From assembly GCA_949130485.1 (NCBI GenBank), contig OX422184.1:22467506-22531505 (forward strand): DNA of 64,000 nt, read 5' to 3'. The translations under genes were made by a program, and so were the position numbers. This document shows positions 9,497 to 62,156 of the stretch, in pieces; position 1 is the first letter of the stretch, and each line of letters starts with the position of its first letter. This stretch comes from Agelas oroides (Eukaryota > Porifera > Demospongiae > Agelasida > Agelasidae). The notes under the pieces were generated by a model. That model saw nothing but the letters and a program-made list of their open reading frames with translations, was not told the DNA's origin and did not search any database.

Positions 9497-12400
9497 ATGA
9501 GTTCTTTTAGTCTACTAGTTCTGGTTTTCGCCATGAGCTGTTTTGCTCTATCTGCTTCAACCAGCCACGATACGTGTCCTTCCGATTCGCAACTTGAGGT
9601 GGTCATGTCTGAAATAAAGCAAACTATCAGCAAGGTCCTAGATCAGTGTCGACGTAAGTACTAAATGTAGTAATACACTGAACAACTGGTATGTGCAACT
9701 GAATGTAAAGCGTAACTTACTGTGGTAAGGGTGTACCCTGCATGTGAACTGCCGCACTGTAAAGACTTTCGCACCTGCACTGACTGCCATAACAAAACTT
9801 CGTGAGCTAAAAGTTGTGCGTTGCAATTATATTGTACCGGCGTGTCTTTGTCACAAGCACTCGATCGTATATTGGATGCCCTGAGACGGTAGCTACACTT
9901 GCAAAGCTAAAGCTTCCGCCTAGCACATTTTATGAGAATGCGGGGCCCCTCTGATATTAAACTGCCTGGTGAGATAGGTTGCTATAGGTTAAACTAGCTA
10001 CAATGCCATGCAACGGGGGGCTCTCAATGGAAAGACCGAGGATAGAGGCGAAGTGACCGAGGATCCAGGTGCAGAGGCAAAGAGACAGAGGATCGAGTGG
10101 ACCTTTTCTGTCCACACAATACCGATACCTAAGCACCTAGCTAGCTATAGGTGTACTACTGGTAGTCGAAGATGGGTAAAATAGGCGCCGCAGTTAGGTA
10201 AACCGCTACCATGCATGCATGGGTGAGGGGCTATTACTGCACATGGTTGGGGCGAGCCTGAGCGAGCCCCACACTAGCGTGACTTCATTGCGCAGATGCG
10301 TGTGTATGTTTGCTTGCTTGTTTGCTTTGACCGACCACTTACCGTAAATTTTAAATGAGCGTATTCAAATATTTCACGAAGATCGATATCGTGAAGCATG
10401 TGAAGGAGGGCTACTGTCTGAGTGCAGCGTCGGGGACCCGGAGCGAAGACGACTGAAATTGAAGCACGTGTGACACTGGTTTGTGCTTCTACCGACGACG
10501 GCAGGCCACTCACAGGCGATATAAATTTGATATGGACGGTGGCCGGTTGACTGGGTCGCCTCATTTCAGGTAGCGGGCCCTGATGTATAAACAGCACGCA
10601 TAAACACCAGAAATTTAGCTCACGATTTCGATATAAAGCTTAGTCCATGCATGTGTAGCCACGTTAGCTGCCATGGCTGGAGAAATGGTTGGCATATGTG
10701 ATACATATATTGAGGACTTATGCGTTGTCAAATTTGGCTTAAACAGTCGACAGTGACAAATCCTGCTGTGTGCCATGACAAAGTAGTAAATCAGTAGTGT
10801 GCTGCTTGCTCAGGCTCGCCCTATGATGATGAATAATCTCACTAGTAAGGTAGGTTGTATGAGTGTAGAAATACAAAAATTGTAAACAGAAATAAATCTA
10901 TAGGAAAACCTTTGCTCGAATGGCAGAACATGTTTCTCGTCTATACAATTATCATGCGGCTCTTCGAGACCGACGCCCTAAGTAGTCATACCATAAGCAA
11001 AAACGTAGCAGTATGTTAATCAGACTTCCTTCTCGATCCCCTCCATGATGCATTGATATTTTGGTACCGTAATTATTCGAATACTACGTATGCTTAAAAG
11101 ATAATTAAGTCGTGACCTTACGTTAATTAGATTCATCATAAATTCCTGAAATTGATTTTCTTACGTTAAATTGGATCATACGTAGTATTCGAATGATTAC
11201 GGTACGTACAAGTAGTCTTGCCATCTGCTTCTCCGTCCTTGATAGTAGTGGCGCAAGTGCAGACACTTGTTATGACACGGCGCGACGCGCTTGCCCTCGC
11301 GTACCCGCCTAACGTCTTCAACTTATGTATACACATTGTTCGTTAGTGACTTGGTTCATGCGAAGTCCGTAGTTGTTGGCAGAGCGTCTGGCAAACTTTA
11401 CCCTCGATCGCTTGCTGTACTGGCCGCATATTGCCTGGGCACGTTGCAATTGTCACCCTCAGGCTGCTGTCCTTTGCGTAGGACGCCATTTTCTAATTTT
11501 GTACGCAGGTAGTCTTGTTCCCAGTCCAAACACAACGGGCATTGATCTGGGAGCGAGATTAGCGCACAAGCGAAATTGCGAGTTGACCAGAGGGCGGTAC
11601 GCATGGTTGGCACGGTCTTTTCCTGTAGTAGTGGACAAGACTTATGAACATGACGTAAGTAAGTCGCTGCATTCAGCTGCCTACTTATAGCTACACTAAA
11701 AATAGCCTACTGGCAGCTTTAGTAAATTGCCTAAAGCCAGGATCGTCAGCTGGTCAGCCGTCATGTCATCGAAAATCAGGAGATTGGTTTCACAAAGTTT
11801 GGTATAGAAAGTGGTTGGCCTTCATCAGTTTCTAGCTGGCAATGTTACACATTATCACATGCTTGGAACCACTACTAAACTGTCAATGCTGTTTCAATTT
11901 CTGGGGTTGTGGTTACACTTGAAAGAAGTACTAGGTCTAGCTGTAATTATAATTAACGTCAAAAGTACAGAAACAAAAGATAAAAACATTAAAGATGTAA
12001 AAGGATGTAGGGATGGCATGCCAAAAATGATAAAGTGAAGGTAAATTTACAAATCCCTATCCCACATCTTTTTACACTACAGTTGCAAACTAGTGTGAAA
12101 ACGATGCAGGAATGGGGCTTTGTATGTTTACCCTCACTTTTATATCATCCCTACCTTGTTTGCATACTTTTTGGCATGCCGTCCCTACATCCTTACATTT
12201 TTAATTTTCCCGTATCATTTGGACTCATTAATGTCAGTTACTTTAGCCTAACGTACATTTCCAAATTAGTCTATATACCACGGAAAATTACGAAAGCCCG
12301 CTGTCATCAAATTTTGGGGTCCCCATGAGGTTGGGGGGGGGGGGGGGGGCGGCCCTAATCCCAATCTCCTGGTAACATGGGGCCCCTATTTGGCCTTCGC

Positions 12401-13476
12401 TTTACGGTCTGTCAGCACATGTCAATGTCTGCCATTCCAGTGTGAAAAGTAGGTATACATTTGTATCATATATCCTAGTATTGGATGAAATATACGATAT
12501 TTTACCACAGTTCCTCCCAGGGGAATAATGATATCCTGGAATAAAATATCTCAGGAGATCAAATAGGCAGACATGCGAGTATCGTAGACCTGCGTCATAG
12601 TTGATTTTATCTCCCCCTAATTCCAATGTATACAGTACAGAACGGATTTTTATTTCTTGCATCGTTCTTGAGATACAGCCAGCTTGTGCAAGAGCAAGAC
12701 ATATTTTGATGTATCGCCAACATAGCCTTGTTCCCAGGCTCTCCCCACGTGCAGAGAAGAAAAGCTGGCTATAGAAGTCTACCGTAGGTATCTCTTTTGT
12801 TATTGTAGGAGTTTCAGAATATCAGCCAATTGGAAACCCTATGTACAGGGACTGCAAGAATGCCTCAGCTCAAGGCCAGACTACCAGTGGAGTCTACACT
12901 ATACAACCAGACAATCAAACAGCATTTCAAGTATACTGTGACATGGAGACAGATGGTGGTGGGTGGACAGTGTTCCAGCGCAGAATGGATGGATCTGTTG
13001 ACTTCTATCGCAACTGGACTGACTATGAGCAAGGTTTTGGAAATCTAAGTGGAGAGTTCTGGCTGGGACTGGACAAGATACACCGTCTGACATCTACTGC
13101 TACTCAGTTACGAGTTGATCTGCAGGATTTTGAAGGAAACTCAGCATACGCAAAGTACACAAGTTTCAGTGTAGGAGATTCAGCATCCAAGTACATTCTA
13201 TCAGTATCAGGATACAGTGGAACTGCAGGAGACTCTCTTGCTGAACAAAATGGACAGAAGTTTACCACAAGGGATCAAGACAATGACGCTGCATCAGGTG
13301 ACAATTGTGCACACCTTTATAAAGGTGGCTGGTGGTATTATGCGTGCCACCGTTCAAACCTCAATGGTCTCTACCATGGTGGATCACACTTATCCTATGC
13401 TGATGGTGTGAACTGGTACGTGTGGAAGGGATTCTATTACTCCCTCAAATTCACTGAAATGAAAGTGAGGCAATAA
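9497..13476 (+). CDS. Secreted fibrinogen-related lectin A (two exons)
   Basis: Exon 1, 9497-9653, encodes a signal peptide (MSSFSLLVLVFAMSCFALSA) and a short helix beginning CPSDSQLEVVMSE. It ends in phase 1 at GTAAGT. Exon 2, 12809-13476, follows TTATTGTAG and joins in frame to give 274 residues. It opens VSEYQPIGNPMYRDCKN and continues as a complete fibrinogen C-terminal domain: DGGGWTVFQRRMDGSVDFYR, GEFWLGLDKIH, the calcium motif [30 protein letters not shown] and KFTEMKVRQ. The four cysteines expected for two disulfides are present. Ficolins and tachylectin-5 bind acetylated sugars through this fold; a recognition role here is inferred. Exon 1 lacks the Asn-Thr-rich linker of genes B to E. 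The 3.2-kb intron is about three times theirs and carries insertions. Confidence 0.87.
10343..10597 (-). CDS. Candidate first exon of an unrecognised gene, antisense in the lectin A intron
   Basis: An open frame starts with ATG at 10597 (second ATG at 10564) and runs 255 nt to a strong donor, ACG|GTAAGTGG. It is CpG-rich, unlike the surrounding intron. The residues (for example ASISVVFAPGPRRCTQTVAL) resemble no family I know. I found no matching downstream exon, so it may be a chance open frame in a CpG-rich insertion. Confidence 0.25.
11066..11205. mobile_element. 140-bp MITE with 29-bp terminal inverted repeats
   Basis: The first 29 bases (from GTACCGTAATTATTCG) match the reverse complement of the last 29 at 28 positions. 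The middle is AT-rich and has no coding potential. No target duplication is evident. Confidence 0.6.
11512..12250 (+). repeat. Intronic segment with an inverted paralogue at about 54270-55015
   Basis: The order of motifs (AGTCTTGTTCCCAG, GAAATTGCGAGTTGACCA, TTCTAGCTGGCAATGTTA, GGATGGCATGCC) is reproduced in reverse complement near 54270-55015. Within it, 11993-12205 is a fold-back element whose ends read GATGTAGGGATGGCATGCC-like and its complement. Further members occur near 52960-53080 and 54280-54510. Confidence 0.55.
12333..12349 (+). repeat. Poly-G run
   Basis: Seventeen consecutive G. Its length is a likely sequencing or assembly uncertainty. It lies inside the lectin A intron. Confidence 0.8.
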
Positions 13477-18448: not shown

Positions 18449-19256
18449 ATGATTTCTCAGAGGCTGCTGGTTGCTGTCTTGGTTTTGAGTTGTGTTGCTG
18501 ATGCCACTTGTAACCATGACAACATAACCATTCTGACCTATCCTATTCAAGTGGTAAGCACTACTACTCAGGGAGAGTGCCCTTCTGATGCACAGCATGA
18601 GATGGTCATGTCTGAAGTGAAGGAAGACATCCGCAACCTTCTACATCAAGTTGGTAAGTTGCATGATGTGGGGTATGAATAACAAAACTTGCATTGTGCA
18701 ACACAAATTTGAAAAGTATACACCTATATATGTTGGCCCATTGGGGGCTATATGGCATGTCCGCAAGTTTTGATGTCAAGCTGTGAAGTATCTATATTTC
18801 CAAGTAGTAACAATCACAGACAGCTAAAACTTATCTTTTTCTCATAAATTCTTTAAACTCAGCCTCAGGGGTGAAATCTTTGACAGTAGCTATATTGCTA
18901 TAACTGCATGGTCTCACAGCAGGTAAATAATGCTCTACAAGCTGCATAGTTGTTAAAGTAAACCCATGCACCTCCAGAATTTTGCCATTTCAACACTATT
19001 TTTATCATAAGTTTTATGCTGTGAAGGATTCTTAGTCATAGCTACTTTGTCTTGTTTTCTTCAAACAAATGCTTTGAAATTGCATCATTTGTACAAATTT
19101 GGAACATCTCTGTTTTATCATCACCCAGGAGTGTATAATGACATTTTGTATCTCTATCCATGGTCAACACTCTTGTGTTTGGTGCTGTGCAATGCTGTGG
19201 TGTGTGTTTGTCCGAGGATACTATTGTTTATGAACACGATAGAGTGGACAAAATAA
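18449..19256 (+). pseudogene. Orphan lectin exon 1 (F) with a truncated exon 2
   Basis: Exon 1, 18449-18653, is intact. It has a signal peptide (MISQRLLVAVLVLSCV), the helix GECPSDAQHEMVMSEVKED, and a GTAAGT donor in phase 1. At 19129 a CACCCAG acceptor is followed by the family start GVYND. The fibrinogen sequence then stops and unrelated sequence reads to a stop at 19256, which would give a 110-residue product without lectin domain. The intact promoter and donor could instead feed exon 2 of gene B at 23315, which has the same phase (inference). Confidence 0.6.
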
Positions 19257-20329: not shown

Positions 20330-20747
20330 ATTTCTAATCCCATAGTCAGAACACATTGCTCATCATGTGCCTAATTGACTCTTATATGTTTGGTCAGATG
20401 TTTGATCTTCAAGTAACAAAATCCTTGTTAATATACTATGGTATGTTTATTCCACAGCAAGAAACAAATTGCTCATTATGTCAATTATACCTACAAAGCT
20501 CACAGGCAGTTATATTGATTTCCACGCATTCGATACTTTTTAACTTGTAGTATCTAACAATATCCCATTAGTGTACTATGGTATGCTTATTCTGTAGCAA
20601 TTATGAAACAAATTGCTCATTATACTTAATTGACTGCTACATGCATGTTCAGACGGATGTTGTGCACATTTAACAAAATCTTTAATGTACTATGGTATGC
20701 TTACTCATAGCTAGAAACAAATTGCTCATTACCATCATTGTATATAT
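20330..20747 (+). repeat. 145-bp satellite array 1 (upstream of gene B)
   Basis: About four degenerate units marked by CTATGGTATG and ACAAATTGCTCATTATGT. The array is interrupted on its right by the insertion at 20748-21321. Confidence 0.75.
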
Positions 20748-22171: not shown

Positions 22172-23949
22172 ATGACTTCTCATAATCTGCTAGTTGCAGT
22201 CTTTACTGTGAGCTGTGTTACTCTTTCCACTGGTAACCATGACAACACAACCACTCTGGCCTATCCTGCCAGAGTGTTCAACACTACTCAGGGAGAGTGC
22301 CCTTCTGATGCACTGCGTGAGATGGTCATAGCTGAAGTGATGGAAGACATCCGCAACCTTCTACCTCTGTTTCGTAAGTGGCTACATCTAATGTGCAAGT
22401 TACCTAATACTGACAGTATACTTTGATGGTGCATTGCATGAGAGGCAATTTCACATGCCCAGGAAAGATAAGTGATGTGCCGCATATTGTAAGGCAACAG
22501 AAATTTCAAGCAACCATCAAATATCGTATATTGCAGTACACTTGACAGCTATGTTGCTACAGAGTGGCATTAACTGTATTGGTAGGCCTTGGCGAATTAT
22601 GAGCATAACTGTACTGTTGAGAAATTTTCAACATTTGCTGCATAAGGGAACAAAGCGAACATGATAAAAGTGGTACAGCATAATATAAACTTCAGTTTAA
22701 CATTATAAGGAGTGCATACATCAGATAAAAGATCAGCTTTTTGTACTTGTGACACTTGCAGGTCAGAGCTCATGAATAATATTAGGAGCATAAATAATAA
22801 CTAATAATAATTTACAATTCTTGAAAACAATATACCACTACTAATATTACATGCATTATGAGCATAATAAACAGTTCTTGAAAACATAATCAAAACAGTT
22901 TGGAGCATTGGAGCATAGCCAATTTTTAAGCATAATTCACCAAGGTCTATAACTAGGCCGGAGCCTAATATGCTAATGCTTTAGCCTAGTATTCTATTCT
23001 GTAAAACATTTTCCCATTATTTTTCCTATGACATTGTGTTCTCAGATGTTCCCATCAAAAACATAAAAATGAAATTATTTTGACAGTACAGTAGCTATAG
23101 CTGCATGGTCTCACAGCTGGTAAATAATGTAGTGCTATGCAAGCTGCATGTTAAAGTAAACCTATGCACCTCTAGAATTTTGCCATTTGAACACTCTAAT
23201 ATTATCATAAATTTTATTCTGTGAAGGATCCTTAGTCATACTTTGTCTTCTTTTCTACAAACAAATGCCATCGTTAGTACAAATTGAAAATACTTCTGTT
23301 TCATCATCACTCAGGAGTGTATAATAACTGCAAAGATGCCTTGACTCAAGGTCAAACTGCCAGTGGAGTCTACACCATCCAACCAGATGATCAGCCAGCA
23401 TTCCAAGCATACTGTGACATGGAGACAGATGGTGGTGGGTGGACAGTGTTCCAGCGCAGAATGGATGGATCAGTTGACTTCTATCGCTACTGGACTGACT
23501 ATCAGCAAGGTTTTGGAAATCTAAGTGGAGAGTTCTGGCTGGGACTGGACAAGATACATCGTCTAACATCTACTGCTACTCAGCTACGAGTTGATATGCA
23601 AGATTTCGAAGGAAACTCAGCATATGCACAGTACACAACTTTTACTGTAGGAAATTCGGCATCCAAGTACATTCTAACAGTATCAGGATACAGTGGAACT
23701 GCAGGAGATGATCTTGCATACCATAATGGACAGCGGTTTAGCACAAGGGATCAAGAAAATGATGCAGCAGGTTACAATTGTGCACAGACCTACAAAGGTG
23801 GCTGGTGGTATAATGCTTGCCACAACTCAAACCTCAATGGTCTCTACCATGGTAGATCACAATCATCCATCGCTGATGGCGTGATCTGGTTCACGTTGAG
23901 TGGCAACGACTACTCCCTCAAATTCACTGAGATGAAACTAAGACAATAA
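22172..23949 (+). CDS. Secreted fibrinogen-related lectin B (two exons)
   Basis: Exon 1, 22172-22373: signal peptide (MTSHNLLVAVFTVSCVTLST), an Asn-Thr-rich linker with NTT glycosylation sequons, and GECPSDALREMVIAEVMEDI, a likely amphipathic helix with one free cysteine. Donor TTC|GTAAGT, phase 1. Exon 2, 23315-23949, follows CACTCAG and opens GVYNNCKDALTQG. The product is 278 residues. The fibrinogen domain is complete and has all four cysteines, but its calcium motif reads DQEND. The pocket region is the most divergent of the family: YHGRSQSSIADGVIWFTLSG replaces the usual YHGGPHSS-type loop. That may mean altered specificity or relaxed constraint. Its first ~355 bases of exon 2 and adjoining intron are nearly identical to gene C. 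Confidence 0.88.
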
Positions 23950-26369: not shown

Positions 26370-27360
26370 GCTGATGCTTCTACCTTATTTGGTAACTAAT
26401 GGTAGTACTAATTTCATAGTCAGAACAAATTGCTCATTATGTGCCTACTTCACTCCTACATGTTTGGTCAGATGTTTTGATCTTCAAGTAACAAAATCTT
26501 CACTATAATGTACTATGGTATGCTTATCCCATATCATGGTATGTTTATGGTATAATTATGTTTATTGCATAGCATGAAACAAATTGCTCATTATGTCAAT
26601 TTTACCTATACAACCCCACAGGCAGTGCTCAGACAAAATAATTTGTAACAAAATCTTCATGAATGTACTATGGTATGTTTTGTTCACTATGTACTTTATT
26701 TGATGGCAAAATTTCTACTAATGGTAATTCTACCAATTTCTCCTAATTTCATTGTCAGAACAAATTGCTCATTATGTGCCTACTTCACTCCTACATGTTT
26801 GGTCAGATGTTTGATCTTCAAGTAACAAAATCTTCATTAATATACTATGGTATGCTTATTCTATAGCAAGAAACAAATTGCTCATTATGTCAATTTTACC
26901 TACAACCCCACAGGCAGTTTATATTGAATGCCACGTGTTCAGACAAAATATTTTTCACATGAAGTTTATAACAAAATCGTCGTTAATGTGCTATGGTATG
27001 TTTATTCTGTGGCCCGGCAAGAGAAAATTTGCTTATTATATCTACAAATCCCATGGGCAATAATTTGACTGCTAATGTGTCCAGACAGATGTTGTGCACT
27101 TTAAGTAACAAAATCTTTATTAATGTACTATCGTATGCTTATTCCATAGCAAGAAACAAATTGCTCATTACCGGGGAATGTACAAGCAATTATAACTACA
27201 AATCCCACAGGCAGTTTATATTGACTGAGACAGATGTTGTGGACGTGAAGAATGTAACAAAATCCTAATGTAACAAAATCCTAATTAAAGTGCTATGGTA
27301 TGCTTAATTCACAGCAAGAAACAAATTGCTCGTAATGTGCAATTACACCCACACATCCAT
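26370..27360 (+). repeat. 145-bp satellite array 2 (upstream of gene C)
   Basis: About seven units, each with CTATGGTATG and AAACAAATTGCTCATTATGT, and some truncated. It ends about 375 bp before the gene C start codon. Confidence 0.8.
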
Positions 27361-27734: not shown

Positions 27735-28917
27735 ATGACTTCTCATAATCTGCTAGTTGCAGTCTTTACTGTGAGCTGTGTTGCTCTTTCTACTGGTAAC
27801 CATGACAACACAACCACTCTGACCTATCCTGCCAGAGTGTTCAACACTGATCAGGGAGAGTGCCCTTCTGATGCACAGCGTGAGATGGTCATAGCATAAT
27901 AGACCCGAATTTTTAAGCATAATTTGCCAAGGCCTATAACTAGGCCTGAGTCTAATATGCTAGTGCTTTGGCCTAGTATTTTATGCTGTAAAACACTTTT
28001 CCCCATTATTTTCCCAAGTGTTCCCATCAAAAACATAAAATATGAAATCATTTGACGGTATATTGCTATAACTACATAGTCTCACAGCAGGTAAATAATG
28101 TAGTGCTATGCTAGCTGCATGTTAAAGTAAACCTATACACTTCCAGAATTTTGCCATTTGAACACTCTAATAATTTTATTCTGTGAAGGATCCTTAGTCA
28201 TACTTTGTCTTCTTTTCTACAAACAAATGCCATCGTTAGTACAAATTGAAAATACTTCTGTTTCATCATCACTCAGGAGTGTATAATAACTGCAAAGATG
28301 CCTTGACTCAAGGTCAAACTGCCAGTGGAGTCTACACCATCCAACCAGATGATCAGCCAGCATTCCAAGCATACTGTGACATGGAGACAGATGGTGGTGG
28401 GTGGACAGTGTTCCAGCGCAGAATGGATGGATCTGTTGACTTCTATCGCTACTGGACTGACTATCAGCAAGGTTTTGGAAATCTAAGTGGAGAGTTCTGG
28501 CTGGGACTGGACAAGATACACCGTCTGGCATCTGCTCCTACACAGGTGCGAGTTGATCTGCGGGATTTTGAAGGAAACTCAGCGTATGCACAGTACACAA
28601 CTTTCAGTGTAGGAGATTCATCATCCAAGTACACTCTGTCAGTATCAGGATACAGTGGAACTGCAGGGGACTCTCTTGCTGCACATCACAATGGAGCCAA
28701 GTTTAGCTCAAGAGATCAAGATAATGATGGAGCTGCTCATACTAATTGTGCGCAAACCTACAAAGGTGCTTGGTGGTATACTGTGTGTCATGATTCAAAC
28801 CTCAATGGCCTCTACCATGGTGGACCACACTCATCTGATGCTGATGGTGTGAACTGGAAGACATGGAAGGGAATCTATTACTCCCTCAAATTCACTGAAA
28901 TGAAAGTGAGGCAATAA
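27735..28917 (+). pseudogene. Lectin C: broken exon 1, intact fibrinogen exon 2
   Basis: Exon 1 starts at 27735 with the family signal peptide and linker and runs to EMVIA. It then meets TAA at 27897, because a deletion has fused exon 1 to the middle of the intron and removed the donor. The join lies in CATAGC, which occurs at both parental points in related genes. Exon 2, 28277-28917, keeps its acceptor and an open, complete fibrinogen domain (DQDND, four cysteines, AWWYTVCHDSN). Its first half equals gene B and its second half is of the A/D type (EMKVRQ). As a stand-alone gene it cannot make a full lectin. Splicing from an upstream exon 1, such as that of gene B, would keep frame (inference). 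Confidence 0.75.
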
Positions 28918-31650: not shown

Positions 31651-32426
31651 AACCCAGCACAGATTGCTTTCAGTGGATCATGCATGACTGTGGTACTGAA
31701 AGCAATATGTGCGTGGGTTGATTAAATTGGTGTGGCTTGTGGGACTGTAATGTAGGAAGTGGTTGGTTACTATTGTAGTGTTAATTACGTACATTGTACC
31801 ACCAAAGCATATAATTATGTATTGTGCTTATCATTGTTACATGTGCATATCACCTGGTAAGCCTCTAACAACCTCCTTCATGCCTGTATGAGCCAAATCT
31901 ACCCCAAGTCACCTATTGACATTACAAGATCCTATAGTTGTACTATTTCACTAGTTAGGCCTGGCTAGTTGGATCTCCGGGGATCCTTCAGAGAGGTATA
32001 CCTGCATTACGTCATCCATGTACACATGAGATGAATAGGCATTGTATTGAGTTGAATTGAGTCACAAGTGTGCAGGTATATCTCTCTGAAGGATCCCCGG
32101 AGATCCAACTAGCCAGGCCTAACTAGTGAAATAGTACAACTATAGGATCTTGTAATGTCAATAGGTGACTTGGGGTAGATTTGGCTCATACAGGCATGAA
32201 GGAGGTTGTTAGAGGCTTACCAGGTGATATGCACATGTAACAATGATAAGCACAATACATAATTATATGCTTTGGTGGTACAATGTACGTAATTAACACT
32301 ACAATAGTAACCAACCACTTCCTACATTACAGTCCCACAAGCCACACCAATTTAACCAACCCACGCACATATTGCTTTCAGTACCACAGTCATGCATGAT
32401 CCACTGAAAGCAATCTGTGCTAGGTT
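31651..32426. repeat. 776-bp near-perfect palindrome
   Basis: The left arm 31651-32006 and right arm 32071-32426 are both 356 bp and are inverted copies with only scattered mismatches. The spacer is 64 bp. Each arm begins with its own small hairpin (ATTGCTTTCAGT / ACTGAAAGCAAT). There is no coding potential. Confidence 0.9.
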
Positions 32427-34765: not shown

Positions 34766-37599
34766 TTGTCAAACTATGTATATCCTGTGAGCAGAGACTC
34801 AAACTTCATTGTTCCCAGCAATACTGTTAACGGTAGAGGTATGGATTTGTCTATTTTGTATTTTAATGCCAGAAGCATCTTACCTAAGTTTGATGAGTTA
34901 CAAGCTGTCTGCCTAACTCTAGATCCTGACATAATATGCATTACGGAAACCTGGTTAAGCAGTGACATTGAAGACCAAGAGATTGTGCTCTCAGGTTATT
35001 ACAGCTGTCGTTTGGATCAAAACAGACATGGTGGTGGTCTTGTTATTTTTTATAGGAGCTACACTAGGTTACAAGCCGGTTCAAATGACCTTGAACTTTC
35101 AATTGTTTCATTTCATAAAGATGATTGTAAAGTTTGTATCGCTCTATTTTACAGACCACCCAGTTCTCCCTTTTGTACTTTTGATAACTTTTGTACCATC
35201 CTTCATTCACTAGACCCGGCATTACTTTCTAATTTTGTACTTCTTGGAGATTTTAATATTGATTTTTATAACCCCCACCACCCATTGTACCCCAGGCTTA
35301 CTACCTTGATGTCTACTTTCTCTCTGACTCAGGTTGTCTCTCAGCATACCCACTTTGGTCCCCATGGACGCTCACTAATTGACTTAGTTCTGCTCTCCCA
35401 ACCAAGCCAGTTACAAGGTTGCTCAGTTATTCCACCACTTGGGAACTCTGACCACCATGGTATCATTCTGTCACTCAAATGGAGACTCTTACGTAAGTCC
35501 GTTGTCAGTAAGAAAAGATCTGTTTGGAGATACAAGCATGCTGATTTTACCAGGGCATGCTCCCTACTTAACTCAGTTGATTGGGATCAAGTTTTGTCTA
35601 TGAACATAAATCTGTCCGGGGACACATGGCGGGACAACTTTATGGAGGTCATGGAACGTTGCATTCCGAGAGCTACTTTACCTGAGAGACGGAATCTCCC
35701 TTGGCTCGATAAGAGCATTGTCCAGGCTATCAAGAGACGCAATTGCCTATACAGGAAACAGAAGCGCACCAACAATCCTAGGCTGACATTGAAGTACACC
35801 CAACTTCGTAATCAGGTCACAGCTAAGTTGAGACAGGCAAAATGAAGCTATTTCAGGAGGCTGAAGAACGCTAGCAGCAGAGACTTTTGGAAATCACTGA
35901 AGTATCTGAATAAAAAACAAACAACATTCCCAGAATTAACCTATAGAGGAGTAGTTATGTCCACTGCATCCGATAAGGCAAATGCTTTCAATACATTTTT
36001 CGCAACCTGTTTTAACCAATCCTTCCCTCAACTTACACTGGAGTATGCACCTGACTTACCACCACAGGACTGCCCTGCTGAAATGTTGTGTACTGAAGTG
36101 GATGTATTTAATATGTTAAATGCATTGGATACCACTAAAGCATGTGGCCCGGATGGTATCACAGGGAAAATGCTTAAAATGACTGCTTCTAGTATAACTC
36201 CTGTGCTAACTAAATTGTTCAATCTATCAATTGCAACTGGTACAGTTCCTACGGCCTGGAAAACATCTACTGTTGTTCCTGTCCCCAAGTGCAGTGCTAA
36301 TACCTCAGACCCCTCAAATTATCGACCAATTTCATTACTATCGATATGCGACAAGTTGCTTGAACGACACATCTCCCATCTGCTGATATCATTTTTGGCG
36401 TCTTCTTGCCCATTGTCTAGCAGTCAGTGGGGTTTTACATCAAAGAAATCTACGGTAACTGCACTGCTATCAGTCCTGCATGATTGGCATCGATATCTTG
36501 AAAAGGGAATAGAGCTCTGTGCAGTTTTTTTGACCTTCGAAAGGCTTTCGATACGGTTCCCCACTATCCCTTGCTCTGTAAACTAGAAGAACTTGGAGTA
36601 GACCGCTATCTGCTCAGATGGATTTGCAATTATCTCTTGGAACGAAAACAGCAGGTGGTTGTGGATGGTGCTATCTCTGATGAGCTTTCTGTTATATCTG
36701 GAGTACCTCAAGGCTCCGTATTGGGCCCGCTATTGTTTCTTATTTACATTGATGGGGTTGAGTCAGTCACTCTCTCAGATGGAACTATCGTGCTGTATGC
36801 TGATGATATGGTTCTATATCGACCAATATACTCCTATGAAGATTACTGGTTACTGCAACAGGACATTAGTGCTATTGCCACGTGGATTGCCGATAACCAC
36901 CTTCAATTTAATACAAGCAAGTGCAAATACATGACCATATCTCGGAAAAGAGCAAAAGAGTTACCACCCACAAACAACCTGAATGGCATCCCACTTGACA
37001 GAGTCACCGAATTTAAATATTTAGGCGTTCTTATTACTGCTGATCTATCCTGGACTGCCCACATAAATATGATATGCACCAAAGCAAGAAGGCTGGTTGG
37101 AATGCTCTATAGGCAATTTTACCAAGATGCAGATACTACCACCCTAAAGCAACTCTATGTCTCTAACATCAGACCCCATCTTGAATATGCCTGTCAAGTT
37201 TGGGACCCTTACCTACAGAAAGATATAGATATGCTAGAATCAGTTCAGAAGTTTGCCTTGCGAGTCTGTTCAAAACAGTGGGATGCTAGTTATTCTATGT
37301 TGTGCAGTAGCCTAAATCTCCCGACTCTCGCTGCCAGGAGAAAGCAGATGAAACTCAGTGTAATGTACAAAATTGTACATGGTCTAGCTTGCTTCCCAAA
37401 TGTTCCCATCTCTGCAAGAGACAACCCTTTCAATCTACGAAGCTTAGCCCCCCATACATTGTCAGGATTTACTGCAAAGACAGACAGCTTTAAGTACTCT
37501 TTCTTTCCTCACTCCGTTGAGCTTTGGAATTTACTACCATCTGATGTGGCTCTGGCAAATTATAACTCTTTTAAAAATTCTATTTTAAATATACTTTAA
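34766..37599 (+). pseudogene. LINE ORF2 endonuclease-reverse transcriptase, disrupted
   Basis: The APE-type endonuclease at the N terminus shows FNARSIL, CITETWL, LLGDFNID and SDHHG, so its catalytic motifs are kept. An in-frame TGA at 35843-35845 interrupts the linker. The same frame resumes and carries NYRPISLL. A one-base loss near 36525, in a T run, shifts the frame just before the DLRKAFD-like motif. The rest, from about 36571, has GVPQGSVLGPLLFLIYI and LYADDMV, the polymerase active site, then HLEYACQVW and a typical CR1 C terminus ending at 37599. No RNase H domain is apparent. Confidence 0.85.
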
Positions 37600-38739: not shown

Positions 38740-39289
38740 TAAATGTTTGAGGCAAGAAAGCAATATCCAAAGTATATTGCTCGTTAATTCTTCTTGTCGT
38801 GCTCATTTCCTGTCATATCAGTGTCACATACCACCTCATTGCTTTAAAATTCTGCAAATATCTGCCTACATTTATACTTTGGGAGCACTAGTGTACAATT
38901 AAAGCCAAATGATGTTTAGTTAAACCTTATAACCATTACTAACCATGTAGACTTGGCTATATATATAGCTAGACTCTAGCAATGTAGCTATTGAGAAGAG
39001 ATGGAGAGGCCCTACTGTGTGGGCTAGCATGTCTGGAACTTTTTTTTTTATCTGTTTGTAGAATCTGATATACTAACAGTAACAGCAGGTGTAGCGGGTG
39101 TAGAGGGTATCCTGACGAGAGTCTGCATTGTGAAAGAAATCAACAATCTTAATTCAAGATGAGTTGAAAAATAATTTAGCAAATTCTTTCATATCAGTTT
39201 TCCTATGCAGAAAAAGTGCAATGTAAAATTTGGAAAATATAATGTGTCATGTTCCATGGCAAAAAAAAATGGTCACTACATCTCACAGG
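38740..39289. other. Upstream flank of lectin D, repeat-derived
   Basis: 38742-38930 belongs to the dispersed repeat block also at 8540-8720 and 56722-57230. 39115-39240 matches 58800-58935 in front of gene E. No gene is supported. Confidence 0.5.
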
Positions 39290-40840
39290 CAGTTGTATGC
39301 TACATGTTCATACAGATATCTTTTACTTCAAATTTGTAACAAAATCTATACTCTGGTATGCTTAATCTGTAGCATGAAACAAATTGCTCATTATGTGCAA
39401 TTATACTTACAAGTCCCACAGGCAAAATTATATTGACTGATACATTTTCAGAGAGATGTTTAAGTAACAAAATCCTCGTTAATATACTATGGTATGCATA
39501 TTCTGTAGTAAGAAACAAATTGCTCATTATGTGAAATTATACTTATAAATCCCACAGGCAAAATTATATGACTGATATGTGTTCAGCAGATGTTTCACAC
39601 TTTAAGTAAGCAGCAAATTCATGTTAATATACTATGGTATGCATATTCTGTAGTAAGAAACAAATTGCTCATTATGTGCAATTATACTTACTAATCCCGC
39701 AGGCAAAAATAGGTTTACTGATACGTGTTCAGACAGATGTTTCACACTTTGAGTAACAAAATCCTTGTTAATATACTATGGTATGCATATTCTGCAATAA
39801 CTAACAAATTGCTCATTATGTGCAATTAGACCTACAAATCCCACAGGCAAAATTCTGTTGACTGATACGTTTTCAGGCAGATGTTTAAGTAACTAAATCC
39901 TGGTTAATATATATATATTATTTGATGGGTGAGAGGGCAATATGGCTGGATATTGCACGAGTGTGCGGTCGTATTTTCACGAGCCGCAGGCGAGTGAAAA
40001 TACAGCACAAGAGTGCAATATCCAGCCATATTGCCCTCTCACACATCAAATAATAGATTTATTATATACTACTGTGATTTAACAGCACCTAGAAGATAGA
40101 CAGCTACTGCGCATGCGCAGTACAAAGGTCGCTGCTGCGTGCATATTTAATGAGCTTCAGGCTGCTGGCCTGTTTCTAGCTTTGGACGCCACCAGCATGC
40201 GTACCGATCCCTCTACCAGTGGAAGAAAGTACCGTAAGTCAGTAAATAATTCCGTTTTCATCCGTAATGAAAGCTTATTCGTTGTTTCAGCAGCGGCTAC
40301 GAGTGCATTCCAATTAAAGCACACGCCGCGGTTGCTACGCAGCATATGCCCTGAGGGCTATGAAATACGGACTATCGAATATGGGAAAATATTTGTCATG
40401 TTGCTCTATGGGAAATACTATTGGCGCGTATACTAGGTATATAATAAACTATGGTATCCATATTCTGCAATAACTAACAAATTGCTCATTATGTCCAATT
40501 AGACCTACAAATCCCACAAGCAAAATTCTGTTGACTGATACGTTTTCAGACAGATGTTTAAGTAACAAAATCCTGGTTAATATACTATGGTATCGCAATA
40601 ACTAACAAATTGCTCATTATGTGCAATTAGACCTACAAATCCCACAGGCAAAATTCTGTTGACTGATACGTTTTCAGACAGTAACAAAATCCTCGTTAAT
40701 ATACTATGGTATGTTTATTCTGTAATAAGAAACAAATTGCTCATTATGTGAAATTATACTTACAAATTTATATTCACTAATATCTGTTCAGACAGAAGTT
40801 TCACACTTTAAGCAACACAATCCTCATTGTTTTAGCAGTA
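39290..40840 (+). repeat. 145-bp satellite array 3 (upstream of gene D)
   Basis: About eight units. Two well-kept neighbours are spaced exactly 145 bp (CAAATTGC at 39516 and 39661). It is split by an insertion at about 39915-40440 and ends about 330 bp before the gene D start codon. Confidence 0.85.
39915..40440. mobile_element. Insertion with a terminal hairpin inside satellite array 3
   Basis: Breaks a satellite unit between AATATATA and TATATAATA. The left part holds a ~40-bp stem: TGAGAGGGCAATATGGCTGG and its complement, near 39931 and 40021-40040. An open frame at 40113-40436 has no recognisable domain. The boundaries are approximate. Confidence 0.5.
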
Positions 40841-41168: not shown

Positions 41169-42802
41169 ATGACTTCTCATAATCTGCTAGTTGCAGTCTT
41201 TACTGTGAGCTGTGTTACTCTTTCCGCTGGTAACCTTGACAACACAACCACTCGGACCTATCCCACCAGAGTGTTAAACTCTGCTCCAGGAGAGTGCCCT
41301 TCTGATGCGCAGCGTGAGATGGTCATAGCTGAAGTGAAGGAAGACATCCGCAACCTTCTACCTCTGATTCGTAAGTGGCTACATCTAATGTGCAAGTTGC
41401 TTAATGCTGACAGTATATATAGTTTGATGGTGCATTGTATGGGAGATAATTTCACATGCCCAGGAAAGATAAGTGATGTGCCGCATATTGTAAGGCAACA
41501 GAAATTTGAAGCAACCATCAAATATCGTATATTGCAGTACACTAGACAGCTATGTTGCTACAGAGTGGCATTAACTGTATTGGTAGGCCTTGGCGAATTA
41601 TGAGTATAACTGCACTGTTGAGATATTCAGCACTTATAAGGAATGCATGCAGCAGATAAATTTTGTGTACTTGTGACACTTGCAGGTCAGAGCTCATGAA
41701 TAATATTATGAGCATAAACAATTCGTGAAGCATAATCCAAACAGGAGCATTGAACCATAACATAATTTTTAAGCATAATTCGCCAAGGTCTATAACTAGG
41801 CAGGAGCCTAATATGCTAATGCTTTAGCCTAGTATTCTATTCTGTAAAACACTTTTCCCATTATTTTTCCTATGTGTTGTCAGATATTCCCATCAAAAAC
41901 ATAGAAAATTAAATTATTTTGACAGCACACTAGCTATAGCTGCATGGTCTCACAGCAGGTAAATAATGCAGTACTAGGCAAGCTGCATAGTTGTTAAAGT
42001 AAACCCATGCACCTCCGGAATTTTGCCACTTCAACACAATAATTGTTATCATAAATTGAAAAATGTGAAGGATCCTTAGTCATACTTTGTCTTGTTTCCT
42101 ACAAACAAACTGAAATTGCATCATTTGTACAAATTGGGAACATTTCTTTTTCATCATCACTCAGGAGTGTATAATGATTGTAAGGATGCTCTGACTCAAG
42201 GCCAAACTACCAGTGGAGTCTACACCATCCAACCAGACAATCAGCCACCATTCCAAGTATACTGTGATATGACCACAGACGGTGGTGGGTGGACAGTGTT
42301 CCAGCGCAGAATGGATGGATCTGTTGACTTCTATCGCAACTGGACTGACTATCAGCAAGGTTTTGGAAATCTAAGTGGAGAGTTCTGGCTGGGATTGGAC
42401 AAGATACACCGTCTGACATCTACTGCTACTGAGCTGAGAGTTGACATGCGAGATTTCGAAGGAAACTCAGCGTATGCACAGTACACAAGTTTCAGTGTAG
42501 GAGATTCAGCATCCAAGTACATTCTAACAGTATCAGGATACAGTGGAACTGCAGGAGACTCTCTTGCTGAACAAAATGGACAGAAGTTTACCACAAGGGA
42601 TCAAGACAATGATGCCCATTCAGGTGACAATTGTGCACAGATCTACAAAGGTGCCTGGTGGTATCACCGTTGCCACTATTCAAACCTCAATGGTCTCTAC
42701 CATGGTGGACTACACTCATCCTTTGCTGATGGTGTGAACTGGGAAGCATGGAGGGGATACTATTACTCCCTCAAATTCACAGAAATGAAAGTGAGGCAAT
42801 AA
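41169..42802 (+). CDS. Secreted fibrinogen-related lectin D (two exons)
   Basis: Exon 1, 41169-41370: signal peptide (MTSHNLLVAVFTVSCVTLSA), an NTTT sequon, GECPSDAQREMVIAEVKEDI; donor ATTC|GTAAGT in phase 1. Exon 2, 42165-42802, after CACTCAG, opens GVYNDCKDALTQGQTTSGV. Total 279 residues. The fibrinogen domain is complete: TDGGGWTVFQRRMDG, GEFWLGLDKIHRL, calcium motif DQDND, NCAQIYKGAWWYHRCHYSN, GLYHGGLHSSFADG, KFTEMKVRQ. The residue before CH is Arg, as in tachylectin-5A, where that residue forms the cis peptide bond of the acetyl pocket (family knowledge). It is the cleanest B/C/D-type gene here and useful as reference for the damaged ones. Confidence 0.9.
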
Positions 42803-44728: not shown

Positions 44729-50717
<5,989 letters not shown>

Positions 50718-51117
50718 CTGCAATAGCAAAATCCATGATAACTCCGAGGCTTGATACCAGCATCTATTAGCTATATCTATTGCAGCTTTAGTTACTTTGG
50801 AGAACCAGGTTTATTGCATTCAAGTGTCTTGCAGGTAGCTATATAGCTACCAAACGTCACAACATAACATGTCACATGCATGACTGTTTGTACTACAAGG
50901 CACTTAGCAGCTAGTGACAGGCATGGACTGTGGAGGTTAGTTGTGGGTTTTCATTAATTACTATGTAATATGACTGTGCAAGAATGTGATTTACATATAG
51001 TTTAGTAATGCTATTTCTCTATCAGTGCAAACAAAGCCCACACATCTGTGGTAGCCTACTACTAGAATGTTGTTCGGTTTCAATCAATGTAATTCTGGGT
51101 ACAAGAACGATACTTAA
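50718..51117. other. Duplicated flank, no exon recognised
   Basis: Parallels 3350-3760 and 5750-6120. The missing 5' exons of copy 2 should lie here or beyond, but I could not identify one. Confidence 0.5.
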
Positions 51118-52111: not shown

Positions 52112-52359
52112 TTGCATTCTACTGTTAGCTAATATGGAACTGTAGAAGACTCTCTTGCATTCCAGAATGGATAGCGGTTTAGTACAAGAGATCAAGCAAA
52201 TGTGCATGGTGGTATAGTAACTGTCACATTTCAAACCTGAATGGCCTCTACCATGGTGGGCCACACTCATCCAATGCTGACGGTGGAACTGGCAAGATGG
52301 AAGGGGAGACTATTAGCTGCTTCCTCAATTTTACTGAGATGAAACTGAGGCAATATTAA
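52112..52359 (+). pseudogene. Fibrinogen-domain 3' fragment, sister of 6247-6513
   Basis: Same truncated exon-2 remnant, with further deletions: about 40 bases are missing in the middle. Readable parts are [21 protein letters not shown] and [10 protein letters not shown], in short in-frame pieces. Confidence 0.8.
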
Positions 52360-56722: not shown

Positions 56723-56801
56723 ATGTTTGATGCAAGAAAGCAATATCCAAAGTATATTGCTTGTTAAGTCTTCTTGTCGTGCTCATTTCCTGTCGTATCA
56801 G

Positions 56802-57467: not shown

Positions 57468-57796
57468 CAGTGGTGGATCTAGAATTTGGAAAAGGGGAGT
57501 TCCAGTATGCGGTTACAGCGCGCGTAGGGTGCCTGCTAGGGGGGTGTGGGGGCATGCCCCCCCAGGAAAATTTTTTGATTTCTGACCTTCTGAGATCGTT
57601 TCTGGTGTATTCTATGGTAGTATATACGTGCATGTAGGCCATGCACGCATTGAATTCTTGATACAGGAGTTGACACACGTGCGTTATTGCTACTGTTGAA
57701 GCTGGAGTGCGTGGCTCCAGTGCGGGCGTAGTGTACGTAGTACGTTTGCGCGTTGTATTTTCGAAGGGAGCCCTTCAAAAGAGGGATCCGCTACTG
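57468..57796. mobile_element. 329-bp MITE with 5-bp target duplication
   Basis: Ends CAGTGGTGGATCTAG and GGATCCGCTACTG, flanked by CTTTA (57463-57467 and 57797-57801). It contains GGGGGCATGCCCCCC, like 56192-56558. Confidence 0.65.
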
Positions 57797-57802
57797 CTTT
57801 AA

Positions 57803-58657: not shown

Positions 58658-58661
58658 TTAA

Positions 58662-59389
58662 TGGCTGAATGCATGATGGGATTACTTGCAATTGAAAGAA
58701 TCCAAGTCGTTTCCACAGATACTTGCAAACAGCATGAACAAATGACACTATCATCTTTCAGCTTCATTAAAATCATGTTATCAGAGACAACTCTTACTGA
58801 CTAGAGTCTGCATTGTGAAAGGAATCAACAATCTGAAGCATTTATTTCAAGATGATTTGAAAAATTTAGCAAATTCTTTCATATCACTTTTCCTATGCAG
58901 AAAAAGTGCAATGTACAATTTTCACTAGAAAATATGTGCTCCATGGCAAGAAAAAAAAAATGGTCAGTACATGCATATCGTAAATCGGTTTAGCTATGCA
59001 TTGCTTATCCTTTTTCAGCATTTTGTCTTGGGACTAAAGGACAATCAAAAGGTTCCACCATCTGTTTCTTCTCTGTGTTCTTTGTCTGGCTAACTTTTGT
59101 ATATCACCTTCTTGTGTCCAGTTTTATTTTGCATTACACTTTGTGCTCACAGTTCTTTTATTTTGAGCATTTAAAGGCTAAACCCTACGAATTACATTAA
59201 ATGAAACTACTTTACTAGTTACACTAACTGCACATAAGAGTAACTAGTGTACTCCTTTAAGTGCTTACCATAACTCCATACAGGAGTAAAAATTTTACTC
59301 CTTGGGGGGTTAAATTTGCCCGGCTGTCGGAACTCCTTCAAAAGAGTAACTCTTACTCCTTTCTTTTAACAGTGTACATCTCACAGGCA
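58662..59389. other. Upstream flank of gene E satellite array
   Basis: 58800-58935 matches 39115-39240. 58975-59370 is a segment not seen at the gene D locus, with ACTCCTTT motifs of an apparent insertion. No gene is supported. Confidence 0.45.
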
Positions 59390-60160
59390 GTTGTATGCTA
59401 CATGTTCATACAGATATCTTTTACTTCAAATTTGTAACAAAATCTATACTCTGGTATGCTTAATCTGTAGCATGAAACAAATTGCTCATTATGTGCAATT
59501 ATACCTACAAATCCCACAGGCAAAATTATATTGACTGATACATTTTCAGACAGATGTTTAAGTAACAAAATCCTTGTTAATATACTATGGTATGCATATT
59601 TTGTACTAAGAAACAAATTGCTCATTATGCGAAATTATACTTACTAATCCCACAGCCATAAATATGTTTACTGATACGTGTTCAGAAAGACTTTGAGTAT
59701 CAAAATTCTCGTTAATATACTATGGTATGCGTATTCGGTGATAAGAAACAAATTGCTCATTATATGCACTTATACCTACAAATCCCACAAGCAAAATTCT
59801 ATTGACTGATACGTGTTCAGACATCTGTTTCACACTTTAAGTGGGTAACAAAATCCTCGGTATTACACTATGGTATGCAATTCTGTAATATGAAACTAAT
59901 TGCTCGTTACGTGCAATTATACTTACAAATCCCACAAATTATATTGACTGATACGTGTTCAGCAGGTGTTTCACACTTTAAGTAAGTAGCAAATCCACGT
60001 TAATATATTATGGTATGCGTATTCTGTAGCCAATAACAAATTGCTCATTATGTGCAATTATATACCTACAAATCCCACAGGCAAAATTATATTGACTAAC
60101 ATCTGTTCAGACAGATGTTTCACACTTCAAACAACAAAATTCTCATTAATATGCTACTGT
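59390..60160 (+). repeat. 145-bp satellite array 4 (upstream of gene E)
   Basis: Five to six units with CTATGGTATG and AACAAATTGCTCATTATG. It ends about 330 bp before the gene E start codon, the same spacing as for gene D. Confidence 0.85.
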
Positions 60161-60384
60161 TTTAGCGGTACCTATCAAGGTGCACCCACACTTTGCTAGC
60201 TGCAGTAGGCCCAAGGGCACCACTAAACACCTTTGGTATACCAAATCATAACGCCACATTACAGTTTAATGACATTGCTATAGAATTGGGTTTACCTGTA
60301 TTGCAAATGATAGAAACTGAGAAAAGGACTAATTATACATTCCTTGTGCAATTATGTTACTATGCAATCAAGGAATAGAAATAG

Positions 60385-60391
60385 TATAAAA
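60385..60391 (+). promoter_or_regulatory. TATA box of lectin gene E
   Basis: TATAAAA, 102 bp before the ATG. Confidence 0.65.
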
Positions 60392-60486
60392 ACAAGTGAC
60401 AACTAAATGATAGACAGCAGACCCAGTTGTGCAATGAATTGAAGATCCAAAAGTGATAGAACCAGCCGTGTGGTCTAAAAAGCAGA

Positions 60487-62156
60487 ATGACTTCTTTTAA
60501 TCTGCTAGTTGCAGTCTTCACTGTGAGCTGTGTTGCTCTTTCCACTGGTAACCTTCACAACACAACTGCTCTGTCCTATCCAGCCAGAGTGTTCAACACT
60601 ATACAGGGAGAGTGCCCTTCTGATGCACAGCGTGAGATGGTCATGGCTGAAGTGAAGGAAGACATCCGCAACCTTCTACCTCTGTTTCTGCCCATTCGTA
60701 AGTGGATCCATCTAATGTGCAAGTTACCTAATACTGACATATATATGATGGTGCATTGCATGAGGCGATTTCACATGCCCAGGAAAGGTAAGTGATATGC
60801 TGATATTGTAAGACGACAGAAGCATTCATCAAATACCAAGTATATTGCAGTACACTTGACAGCTATGTTGTTACAGTGTGGCACTAACTAGGTAGGCCTT
60901 GGCGAATTATGAGCATAACTGTACTGTTGAGAAATTTTCAACATTAATTTGCTGCAAAGGGAACAAAGAAAACATGATAAAAAAACTGTAACGGTGTAAC
61001 ACAAACTTCAGTTTAACATTATAAAGCAGATAACCTCTTTGTACTTGAGACACTTGCAGGTCAGAGCTCATGAATAATACTATGAGCATAACAAACAATT
61101 CTTGAAAACATAATCAAAACAGTTAGGAGGTTTGGAGCATAGCATAATAGGCACCAATTTATCGCATAATTCACCAAGGCTAATACGTTAATGCTTTAGC
61201 CTAGTATTTTATGCTGTAAAACACTTTTCCCCATTATTTTTCCAAGTGTTCTCAGATATTCAAAAACATAACAAATGAAATCATTTGACAGTACATCAGT
61301 TATAGCTGCATGGTCTCACAGTAAACAATGTAGTGCTATGCCAACTATCATAAATTTTATGGTTTGAAGGATTCTTACTTTGTCTTGTTTTCTACCAAAA
61401 AATGCTCTGAAATTGCATCATTTGGAACATTTTATCATCACTCAGGAGTGTATAATGATTGTAAGGATGCATTACCTGCTCTCTCATGTAGGAGTTTCAG
61501 AATATCAGCCAATTGGAAACCCCATGTACAGTGACTGCAAGAATGCCTCAGCTCGAGGCCAGACTACCAGTGGAGTCTACACCATCCAACCAGACAATCA
61601 ACCAAGATTCCAAGTATACTGTGACATGGAGACAGATGGTGGTGGGTGGACAGTATTCCAGCGCAGAATGGACGGATCTGTTGACTTCTATCGCTACTGG
61701 ACTGATTATCAGCAAGGCTTTGGAAACGTAAGTGGAGAATTCTGGCTGGGGCTGGACAAAATACATCGTCTGACATCTACTCCAACTGAGCTGCGAGTTG
61801 ATATGCAAGATTTCGAAGGAAACTCAACGTATGCACAGTACACAAGTTTCAGTGTAGGAGATTCAGCATCCAAGTACATTCTATCAGTATCAGGATACAG
61901 TGGAACTGCAGGGGACTCTTTTGGAGGCCATAATGGACAGAGGTTTAGTACAAGGGATCAAGACAATGATGCTTGGGGTCACAGCTGTGCACAGCACTAC
62001 AAAGGTGGCTGGTGGTATAGTGCTTGCCACCATTCAAACCTCAATGGTCTCTACCATGGTGGACCACACTCATCCTATGCTGATGGTGTGAACTGGTACA
62101 CGTGGAGGGGCCACCATTACTCCCTCAAATTCACTGAGATGAAACTAAGAGACTAA
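60487..62156 (+). CDS. Secreted fibrinogen-related lectin E (two exons, chimeric)
   Basis: Exon 1, 60487-60697, is of the B/D type (MTSFNLLVAVFTVSCVALST, GECPSDAQREMVMAEVKEDI) with a 9-nt in-frame insertion before the donor CATTC|GTAAGT. Exon 2 must start at 61492, after CATGTAG; it opens VSEYQPIGNPMYSDCKN as in gene A. Total 291 residues. An older B/D-type acceptor with 24 nt of its exon remains upstream (CACTCAG, exon base 61446), but its use shifts the frame and meets TGA. The domain is complete, with DQDND, SCAQHYKGGWWYSACHHSN and [14 protein letters not shown]. It ends KFTEMKLRD, and its 3' flank equals that of gene B. So exon 1, exon-2 start and 3' end trace to different paralogues. Confidence 0.88.

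Follow-up and report, generated by a model that had tools for sequence, protein, structure and literature searches.

The lectin genes of the window

The window analysed here is a stretch of 64,000 nucleotides from the sponge Agelas oroides (contig OX422184.1, here C2, positions 22467506-22531505; assembly of 259,295,671 bases in 141 contigs). It carries part of an array of genes for predicted lectins with a fibrinogen domain. Among these genes and their paralogues, the domain body is nearly constant and the rim of the N-acetyl sugar site is different in almost every copy. Five complete Fibrinogen_C exons (genes A to E) were found on the plus strand, all with open frames. All five match the Pfam profile PF00147 over its full length, with E values from 3.5e-79 to 2.6e-81 and 266-273 bits against a curated cut-off of 22. 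The upstream exon of A, B, D, and E has a signal-peptide-like start (read by eye), a GTAAGT donor, and a phase 1 junction with the fibrinogen exon. The features are listed below in window positions; residue numbers throughout are those of human FIBCD1.

6258..6509, + strand: broken 3' fibrinogen-exon fragment (pseudogene)
9488..9653, + strand: gene A, exon 1; signal-peptide-like start MIKMSSFSLLVLVFAMSCFALSAS... (by eye), short N-terminal segment, donor GTAAGT; its splice phase 1 agrees with that of its fibrinogen exon
12809..13476, + strand: gene A, fibrinogen-domain exon; PF00147 E value 2.6e-81; acceptor TTGTAG at 12803-12808
13228..13344, + strand: gene A, first pocket-rim segment; codons for residues 376-413, counted from the five-copy alignment
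18449..18653, + strand: orphan exon 1 with donor; fibrinogen-exon homology breaks off just past the first codons, near 19141
22172..22373, + strand: gene B, exon 1
23315..23949, + strand: gene B, fibrinogen-domain exon; 431 (pocket wall) is I, 443 is N
27735..27895, + strand: gene C, exon 1 remnant; homology stops short of the splice donor
28277..28917, + strand: gene C, fibrinogen-domain exon; open frame; 431 is D, 443 is I
41169..41370, + strand: gene D, exon 1
42165..42802, + strand: gene D, fibrinogen-domain exon
52136..52355, + strand: broken 3' fibrinogen-exon fragment (pseudogene)
60487..60697, + strand: gene E, exon 1 of the B/C/D type
61492..62156, + strand: gene E, fibrinogen-domain exon; A-type 5' start after a remnant B/D-type acceptor at about 61444

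Gene E is a mosaic gene, and the two fragments and the orphan exon 1 are relics of additional copies. Gene C is doubtful as a working gene because its exon 1 is truncated ahead of the splice donor, and it may lack expression as such. The gene models were built from genomic DNA, and further exons may exist besides exon 1 and the fibrinogen exon. No collagen-like Gly-X-Y repeat, the mark of ficolins, was seen by eye in exon 1 of A, B, D, or E (about 55-70 residues). This exon is also too short to hold an immunoglobulin superfamily (IgSF) domain, as found in the molluscan fibrinogen-related proteins (FREPs); the Pfam scan covered the fibrinogen exons.

Variation around the sugar site in two gene families

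The published sugar site of human FIBCD1 was used as the reference for the window copies. Domain A aligns to FIBCD1 (4m7f) with an E value of 2e-76, and the alignment is gap-free from Cys401 to the end. The numbering was anchored on Cys401, Tyr405, Asn413-Cys414-His415, Tyr431-Ala432, and Trp443, which are residues named in PMC3908420. A one-residue gap is needed in the 396-400 loop of A, C, and D, and numbers within this loop are approximate for copies carrying the extra residue. In FIBCD1, Tyr431 and Trp443 are described as walls of the acetyl pocket (PMC3908420, PMC10825690). The S1(2)/S1(3) extension of the site comprises 412 and 413 (Arg412, Asn413) together with 381, 382, 396, and 398 (PMC10825690).

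An earlier note on this DNA had claimed that a few positions in the C-terminal half differ in almost every copy, and that they lie at the predicted ligand pocket. The residues it named are exact in all five exons, A to E: YA, NA, TV, HR, and SA after WWY; R, N, D, Y, and H after CH; Y, I, D, F, and Y after HxS; YV, FT, KT, EA, and YT after GVNW or GVIW; and FY, ND, IY, YY, and HH before YSLKF. These positions correspond to 412, 413, 416, 431, 438, 439, 443, and 444, and by alignment to the solved structure they fall on the FIBCD1 sugar site. Over the five copies, each of these eight sites has 3-5 different residues, with a mean of 4.0 against a domain mean of 1.38. None of 100,000 random draws equalled this mean, a post hoc comparison since the sites had been picked for their variability. 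Nine pocket residues taken from the literature have a mean of 2.44 residues; p is 0.0013 when they are compared with the domain and 0.044 when the comparison stays within its C-terminal part. Further differences among the five copies lie at 381, 397, 399, and 404 and in the length of the loop. Pairwise NG86 counts on the five copies gave proportions of nonsynonymous and synonymous differences (pN and pS) of 0.50 and 0.66 at the eight sites, and were set aside as evidence because the sites are too few.

The paralogues were collected from the whole assembly, where the PF00147 profile matches at 79 places. Family 1 consists of 30 full-length relatives on C2 and C6, each a single open frame scoring 359 bits or more with a custom profile; it omits the broken or partial copies in the loci L002, L015 (second copy), and L021 (second copy). 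Family 2 consists of 16 genes on C4, C1 (locus L035), and C22, whose frames score 160 bits or more and span at least 215 residues. Two C4 frames of at least 215 residues were excluded (155.9 and 157.3 bits), and the other excluded C4 pieces are broken or short. Also excluded were the matches on C13 and C15, single matches on C7 and at C4:467901, and the small C2 relics. Eight other fibrinogen domains were used for alignment only. The loop 424-437 of family 2, which includes residues 431 and 432, aligns poorly to family 1, and the family 2 tests were repeated without it.

In family 1, the ten positions of highest entropy are 381, 416, 438, 412, 404, 444, 413, 397, 399, and 398. The most variable positions ring the N-acetyl pocket known from FIBCD1 and the ficolins, chiefly at the S1(2)/S1(3) extension (381, 396, 398, 412, 413), with 397, 399, 404, 416, 438, and 444 as further members of the ring. 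Mean entropy is 0.54 in the domain and 0.90 in its C-terminal part, and it rises to 2.39 at the six S1(2) and S1(3) contacts (381, 382, 396, 398, 412, 413; p 7e-5 against the C-terminal part). At the S1(1) anchor the mean is 1.14, which is unexceptional within the C-terminal part (p 0.25). The variation is thus greatest at the rim and smaller at the acetyl anchor. Five of the eight sites named earlier (412, 413, 416, 438, 444) are among the top ten, and 431, 443, and 439 have lower entropies (2.06, 1.64, and 1.44). Sites of the same kind that had not been named are 381, 385, 397-399 (with length changes), and 404. When the rim is read as 11 residues, 28 distinct rims occur in the 30 copies. 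Averaged over every pair, the copies differ by 10% in the 5' part, by 24% at 376-413, and by 19% at 414-455.

The variable positions are similar in family 2, a second and diverged array of the same genome. With the loop included, the mean entropies of family 2 are 1.80 for S1(2) and S1(3) (p 0.0018) and 1.65 for S1(1) (p 0.006); without 424-437 they are 1.80 against 0.72 (p 0.0005) and 1.42 (p 0.045). Position by position, the entropies of the two families are correlated: rho is 0.50 over 194 positions and 0.73 over the 66 positions of 376-455 that remain when 424-437 is left out.

Several residues of the site are almost invariant. Among the 30 family 1 copies, C401 is found in 29, C414 in 29, H415 in 26, A432 in 26, and W409 and W410 in 30 each. 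The calcium aspartate D395 is present in all 30, and 393 is D in 28 and E in 2. The C401-C414 disulphide and the calcium aspartates 393/395 of acetyl-binding fibrinogen-related domains are thus present across the family. The pocket walls are less uniform: Tyr occupies 431 in 17 copies and Phe in 3; at 443 the corresponding counts are 19 and 3. The ten copies without Tyr or Phe at 431 probably bind something else or nothing. Judged by these residues, simple acetyl binding was probably lost where 431 is Asp, Ser, Ile, Val, Gln, or His, and likewise where 443 is His, Asn, Ile, or Asp. Seven residues were taken as the canonical anchor (C401, C414, Tyr/Phe 405, H415, Tyr/Phe 431, A432, and Tyr/Phe/Trp 443). 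In the window, A and D carry all of them, E deviates at 443 (H), and B and C deviate at 431 and 443.

Gene conversion and tests for selection at the rim

The earlier note had spoken of substitutions. Point changes are one part of the variation, and segments of the pocket have also been exchanged between genes by gene conversion. When the 3' part of family 1 was fitted on the tree of the 5' part (M0, branch lengths only rescaled), the fit was 664 log units worse (-3951 against -3287). One case is the copy f03, which has zero differences from f01 in the 5' part of the exon and at 414-455. Upstream, over about 500 nt, the two differ by 0.2%, and downstream, over 450 nt, by 1.8%. Inside the exon, 14 codon positions differ, all within 376-405, a tract of less than 100 bp at the pocket rim. 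At 13 of these 14 codons f03 equals a third copy, f06, including a one-codon insertion. Farther than about 820 nt upstream, f03 and f01 show no relationship. Gene E and f18 have a similar relationship: no differences at 414-455, 0.2% downstream, 2.9% in the 5' part, and 15.8% at 376-413. Upstream, about 450 nt are missing in f18, with 0-4 differences per 60 nt elsewhere. No single-piece donor of the f18 tract was found; its 401-426 segment equals that of f20, and the best match for 328-408 is f14 (91%). Short tracts common to otherwise different copies, with flanks unchanged, are therefore present in f03/f01/f06 and in E/f18.

Gene A and f19 show a one-sided exchange. Their upstream flanks are 0.6% apart and their 5' parts 0.3%; divergence sets in at about nt 380 and reaches 33% at 376-413, and downstream the two are unrelated. 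The segment 376-413 is the stretch in which the young duplicates differ; E/f17 and f00/f02 are duplicates without a change in the rim tract. In a run-length test, 36 of 435 pairs had identical stretches never reached in 400 column shuffles, with about 1 pair expected by chance. The tracts include rim segments common to f14/f15, f18/f20, and f12/f15, and also scaffold segments. Conversion thus both homogenises the domain body and moves rim segments. The two broken fragments of the window (6258-6509 and 52136-52355) were considered as recent donors to the intact copies of the window and rejected, since their identity to these copies is at most about 81%.

Selection was tested with a model that gives each codon a free synonymous rate before asking for nonsynonymous rates above synonymous ones (dN > dS). 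For the 3' part of family 1, twice the log-likelihood difference (2dL) was 15.4, and none of 60 null simulations, two-tree simulations included, was as high (maximum 14.5). In family 2 the value was 10.6 (1 of 60 null simulations), and without the loop 424-437 it was 8.8 (0 of 60). The 5' half of family 1 gave 6.1 (2 of 30). Eight of the 80 C-terminal sites of family 1 have a posterior above 0.9 for dN > dS: 381, 385, 398, 399, 404, 427, 431, and 438. With a free synonymous rate, the eight sites of the earlier note have a pooled dN/dS of 1.56 in family 1 (p = 0.052). In family 2, where they were not chosen, the value is 2.28 (p = 0.038), or 2.28 with p = 0.068 when site 431 is left out. The S1(1) contacts of family 2 have a dN/dS of 2.01, and of 2.10 without the loop. 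The named pocket sites alone range from about 0.9 to 2.3, and the conserved codons between the named sites have 0.54 and 0.34. Eleven rim codons have a nonsynonymous rate (beta) of 3.5, against 0.29 in 27 interleaved conserved codons, a difference of about 12-fold. The rim residues also deviate from the neutral composition (family 1 p 0.046, family 2 p 0.0003, in columns picked for varying), with an excess of His, Tyr, Trp, Asn, and Thr.

As a site-wise check, the stricter test holds in both families, but a pooled dN/dS above 1 at the pocket sites is not secure. A binding face diversified on a constant scaffold, as the earlier note proposed, is in line with the rate excess at the rim and with the second array, and less firmly with the dN/dS values. 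Diversifying selection at the rim has moderate support, weaker than standard tests suggest.

Several other elements were observed. A satellite-like repeat of about 135-148 bp lies upstream of several lectin genes (39277-40824, 59375-60156, 20374-20731, and 26743-27358) and might aid misalignment and duplication of the array. A long direct duplication (1-3744 and 47854-51117), about 90-92% identical in parts, flanks genes A to D. A palindromic stretch at 31651-32426 is 94% identical to its own reverse complement over 789 alignment columns. At 34766-37599 there is a relic resembling a long interspersed nuclear element (LINE), with an endonuclease/phosphatase frame (E value 5.8e-12) and, after it, two reverse-transcriptase frames (1e-4 and 3.8e-17) that differ in reading frame. 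Elsewhere on C2, fibrinogen exons stand head to tail, 0.7-1.7 kb apart, in the loci L004, L005, and L001 (20608-20609, 22369-22374, and 22444-22446 kb); these are possibly alternative terminal exons of one gene. Contig C141 (22,436 bases) is a mitochondrial genome, with a COX1 gene containing in-frame TGA, 23 tRNA calls, and an atp9 frame (by eye). A mitochondrial atp9 together with this layout is indicative of a demosponge. Its cox1 (locus L043, about 14.6-15.8 kb) is interrupted by an intron-like stretch with an endonuclease-like frame (by eye). A further COX1 match without stop codons lies at C107:16176-16808, on a contig that is probably bacterial (symbiont or contaminant).

A probable repertoire of sugar specificities and its known relatives

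The reading we consider probable is that this is a germline array of predicted secreted lectins of the tachylectin-5/ficolin type, in which selection for rim diversity has given rise to an inherited repertoire of specificities. The lectin would retain the acetyl-anchoring floor and the calcium site, and the rim loops would read whatever adjoins the acetyl group. New rims would arise by point change and short conversion, and such copies would be retained. Selection would favour copies that read different sugars beside the common acetyl anchor, so that the array would serve as an inherited repertoire of binding specificities. A more specific form can be put forward tentatively. Here short conversion would deal rim segments between genes on the constant, acetyl-anchored scaffold, making the repertoire combinatorial, and each gene, probably each individual, would read a different second and third sugar. 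The dealt segments would be about 378-405 and 404-426, with a probable third at 431-444.

Several points weigh against selection for a diverse rim. The standard site models M1a/M2a, run with our own Python code, gave 2dL values in family 1 of 250.6 (full domain) and 132.4 (3' part), and in family 2 of 67.5 and 33.6; M2a favours a class with omega of about 4-5 and sites at the rim. They were rejected as evidence. Null simulations with variable synonymous rates and two trees reached the observed 132.4 in 4 of 25 runs (mean 93.9, maximum 143.4), with no simulated codon having dN above dS, and the naive site test is thus misleading for this array. At the 12 published contacts, the dN/dS of family 1 is about 1 (0.96 for S1(1), 1.15 for S1(2) and S1(3)). 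The S1(2) and S1(3) value of family 2 is 0.88, or 1.09 without the loop. The synonymous rate is also raised at the rim codons (2.25 against 0.71, about 3-fold), which a pure selection account does not simply predict. With the whole-domain tree, the sites 249, 271, and 367, outside the pocket part, also exceed a posterior of 0.9. All seven anchor residues are present in 12 of the 30 copies, and gene C has no usable exon 1. In FIBCD1, K381L blocks binding to acetylated albumin, with acetylated resin still bound, and H396A is without significant effect (PMC10825690). An AlphaFold model of domain A with the five window copies reached a predicted local distance difference test score (pLDDT) of 35.7 and a predicted template modelling score (pTM) of 0.32 and was unused, so the site mapping rests on alignment to the solved structure.

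Some of these points are shared by the main rival, relaxed constraint, in which the rim is irrelevant in most copies and drifts freely, and conversion spreads the variants with no selection for difference. The near-neutral dN/dS at the published contacts, which is not clearly above 1, the 18 of 30 copies deviating from the canonical anchor at one residue or more, and the broken exon 1 of gene C all fit this explanation. However, adjacent pocket residues are fixed (C401, C414, D395, W409, and W410), and similar positions vary in the second, diverged array. The stricter test rejects it in both families, and the rim composition is non-neutral, with the reservation that the columns were picked for varying and that the family 1 value is marginal. 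Relaxed constraint is therefore regarded as unlikely. A mainly mutational signal, from codon-scale hot spots, multi-nucleotide mutation, or conversion re-dealing old codons, is more improbable. It would account for the raised synonymous rate at the rim, and conversion is frequent, as the misfit of the two trees indicates. However, a hot spot would need to skip single codons, such as those of WWY, C, H, and SNLNG, the dN > dS signal persists with a codon-variable synonymous rate, and the choice of residues is biased. An assembly artefact is very improbable. Near-identical units (E/f17, f00/f02) could be haplotypes placed in tandem, E and f17 being 2 nt apart in the exon with flanks differing by 0.0-0.2%, and mosaics such as f03 could be chimeras. 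But the paralogues differ on average by the 10 to 24% given above, most copies lie on a single 26 Mb contig, f03 carries the f06 codons inside an exon whose ends equal f01, and the pattern over 30 and 16 genes does not depend on these cases.

The remaining alternative concerns the ligand. By analogy, the targets of the repertoire would most likely be microbial or symbiont surface glycans, because fibrinogen-domain genes respond to microbial patterns in Dysidea avara (two up, three down; PMC6208332, Table 3). A ficolin-like gene is also up on symbiont re-infection in Cliona varians (PMC6208332), and relatives such as PmFREP and FIBCD1 recognise acetylated sugars as well as microbes or chitin (PMC7858579, PMC3908420). 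Against these reports stands the rather unlikely case of a pattern that is real and selected but directed at the sponge's own kind (allorecognition or aggregation glycans) or at food particles. The sequence itself does not name the ligand. Sponges have strong allorecognition, and many host dense microbial communities.

Sponges are not known to have an antigen-receptor system. The copies differ where a relative of solved structure contacts its sugars, which makes the array a direct candidate for how a sponge tells microbes apart. If the combinatorial repertoire reading is true, one of the earliest animal lineages would possess a germline counterpart of antibody loops. The array also points to a possible role for the S1(2)/S1(3) extension of human FIBCD1, which corresponds to the most variable part in the sponge arrays. 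The selection tests carry a warning as well: where gene conversion is at work in an array, selection can be greatly exaggerated by standard site models.

FIBCD1, ficolin-1, and tachylectin-5A have the same domain as the window lectins (E values 2.1e-76, 1.4e-73, and 3.6e-61). The disulphide, the calcium aspartates, and the S1 residues of tachylectin-5A, the ficolins, and FIBCD1 are common with the canonical sponge copies. The S1(1) pocket of the acetyl-binding relatives is reported as conserved (PMC10825690), whereas the roughly 30 sponge copies differ at the S1 rim. Unlike in the ficolins, no collagen-like region was seen in the sponge genes, whose N-terminal part is encoded by a short exon with a signal-peptide-like start. 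Snails are already known to have diversified immune proteins with a fibrinogen domain: the FREPs of Biomphalaria glabrata, likewise an invertebrate family, owe their diversity to gene conversion and point mutation (PMC12074976). The FREPs have IgSF domains, and somatic diversification is claimed for them (PMC12074976); in the sponge array no IgSF part was seen, and the variation lies in germline copies and is centred on the sugar site. What sets the present case apart is the germline sponge array itself, its focus on the published extended sugar site, the repetition in a second array, and the visible exchange of rims in young duplicates. No account of pocket-centred diversification of sponge fibrinogen lectins was among the literature matches listed, which were open-licence papers.

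Two further systems are comparable without being related. The Sp185/333 (SpTransformer) protein of sea urchins is unrelated to the fibrinogen-domain lectins. Its genes are likewise clustered and duplicated immune genes for which gene conversion is a term in use; their variation falls into blocks called elements, whereas that of the sponge lies around a known ligand pocket. The peptide-binding region of the major histocompatibility complex (MHC) offers an analogy, with hypervariable ligand contacts on a fixed fold and short-tract conversion. There is no homology between the two, and in the sponge array the variation is between paralogues.

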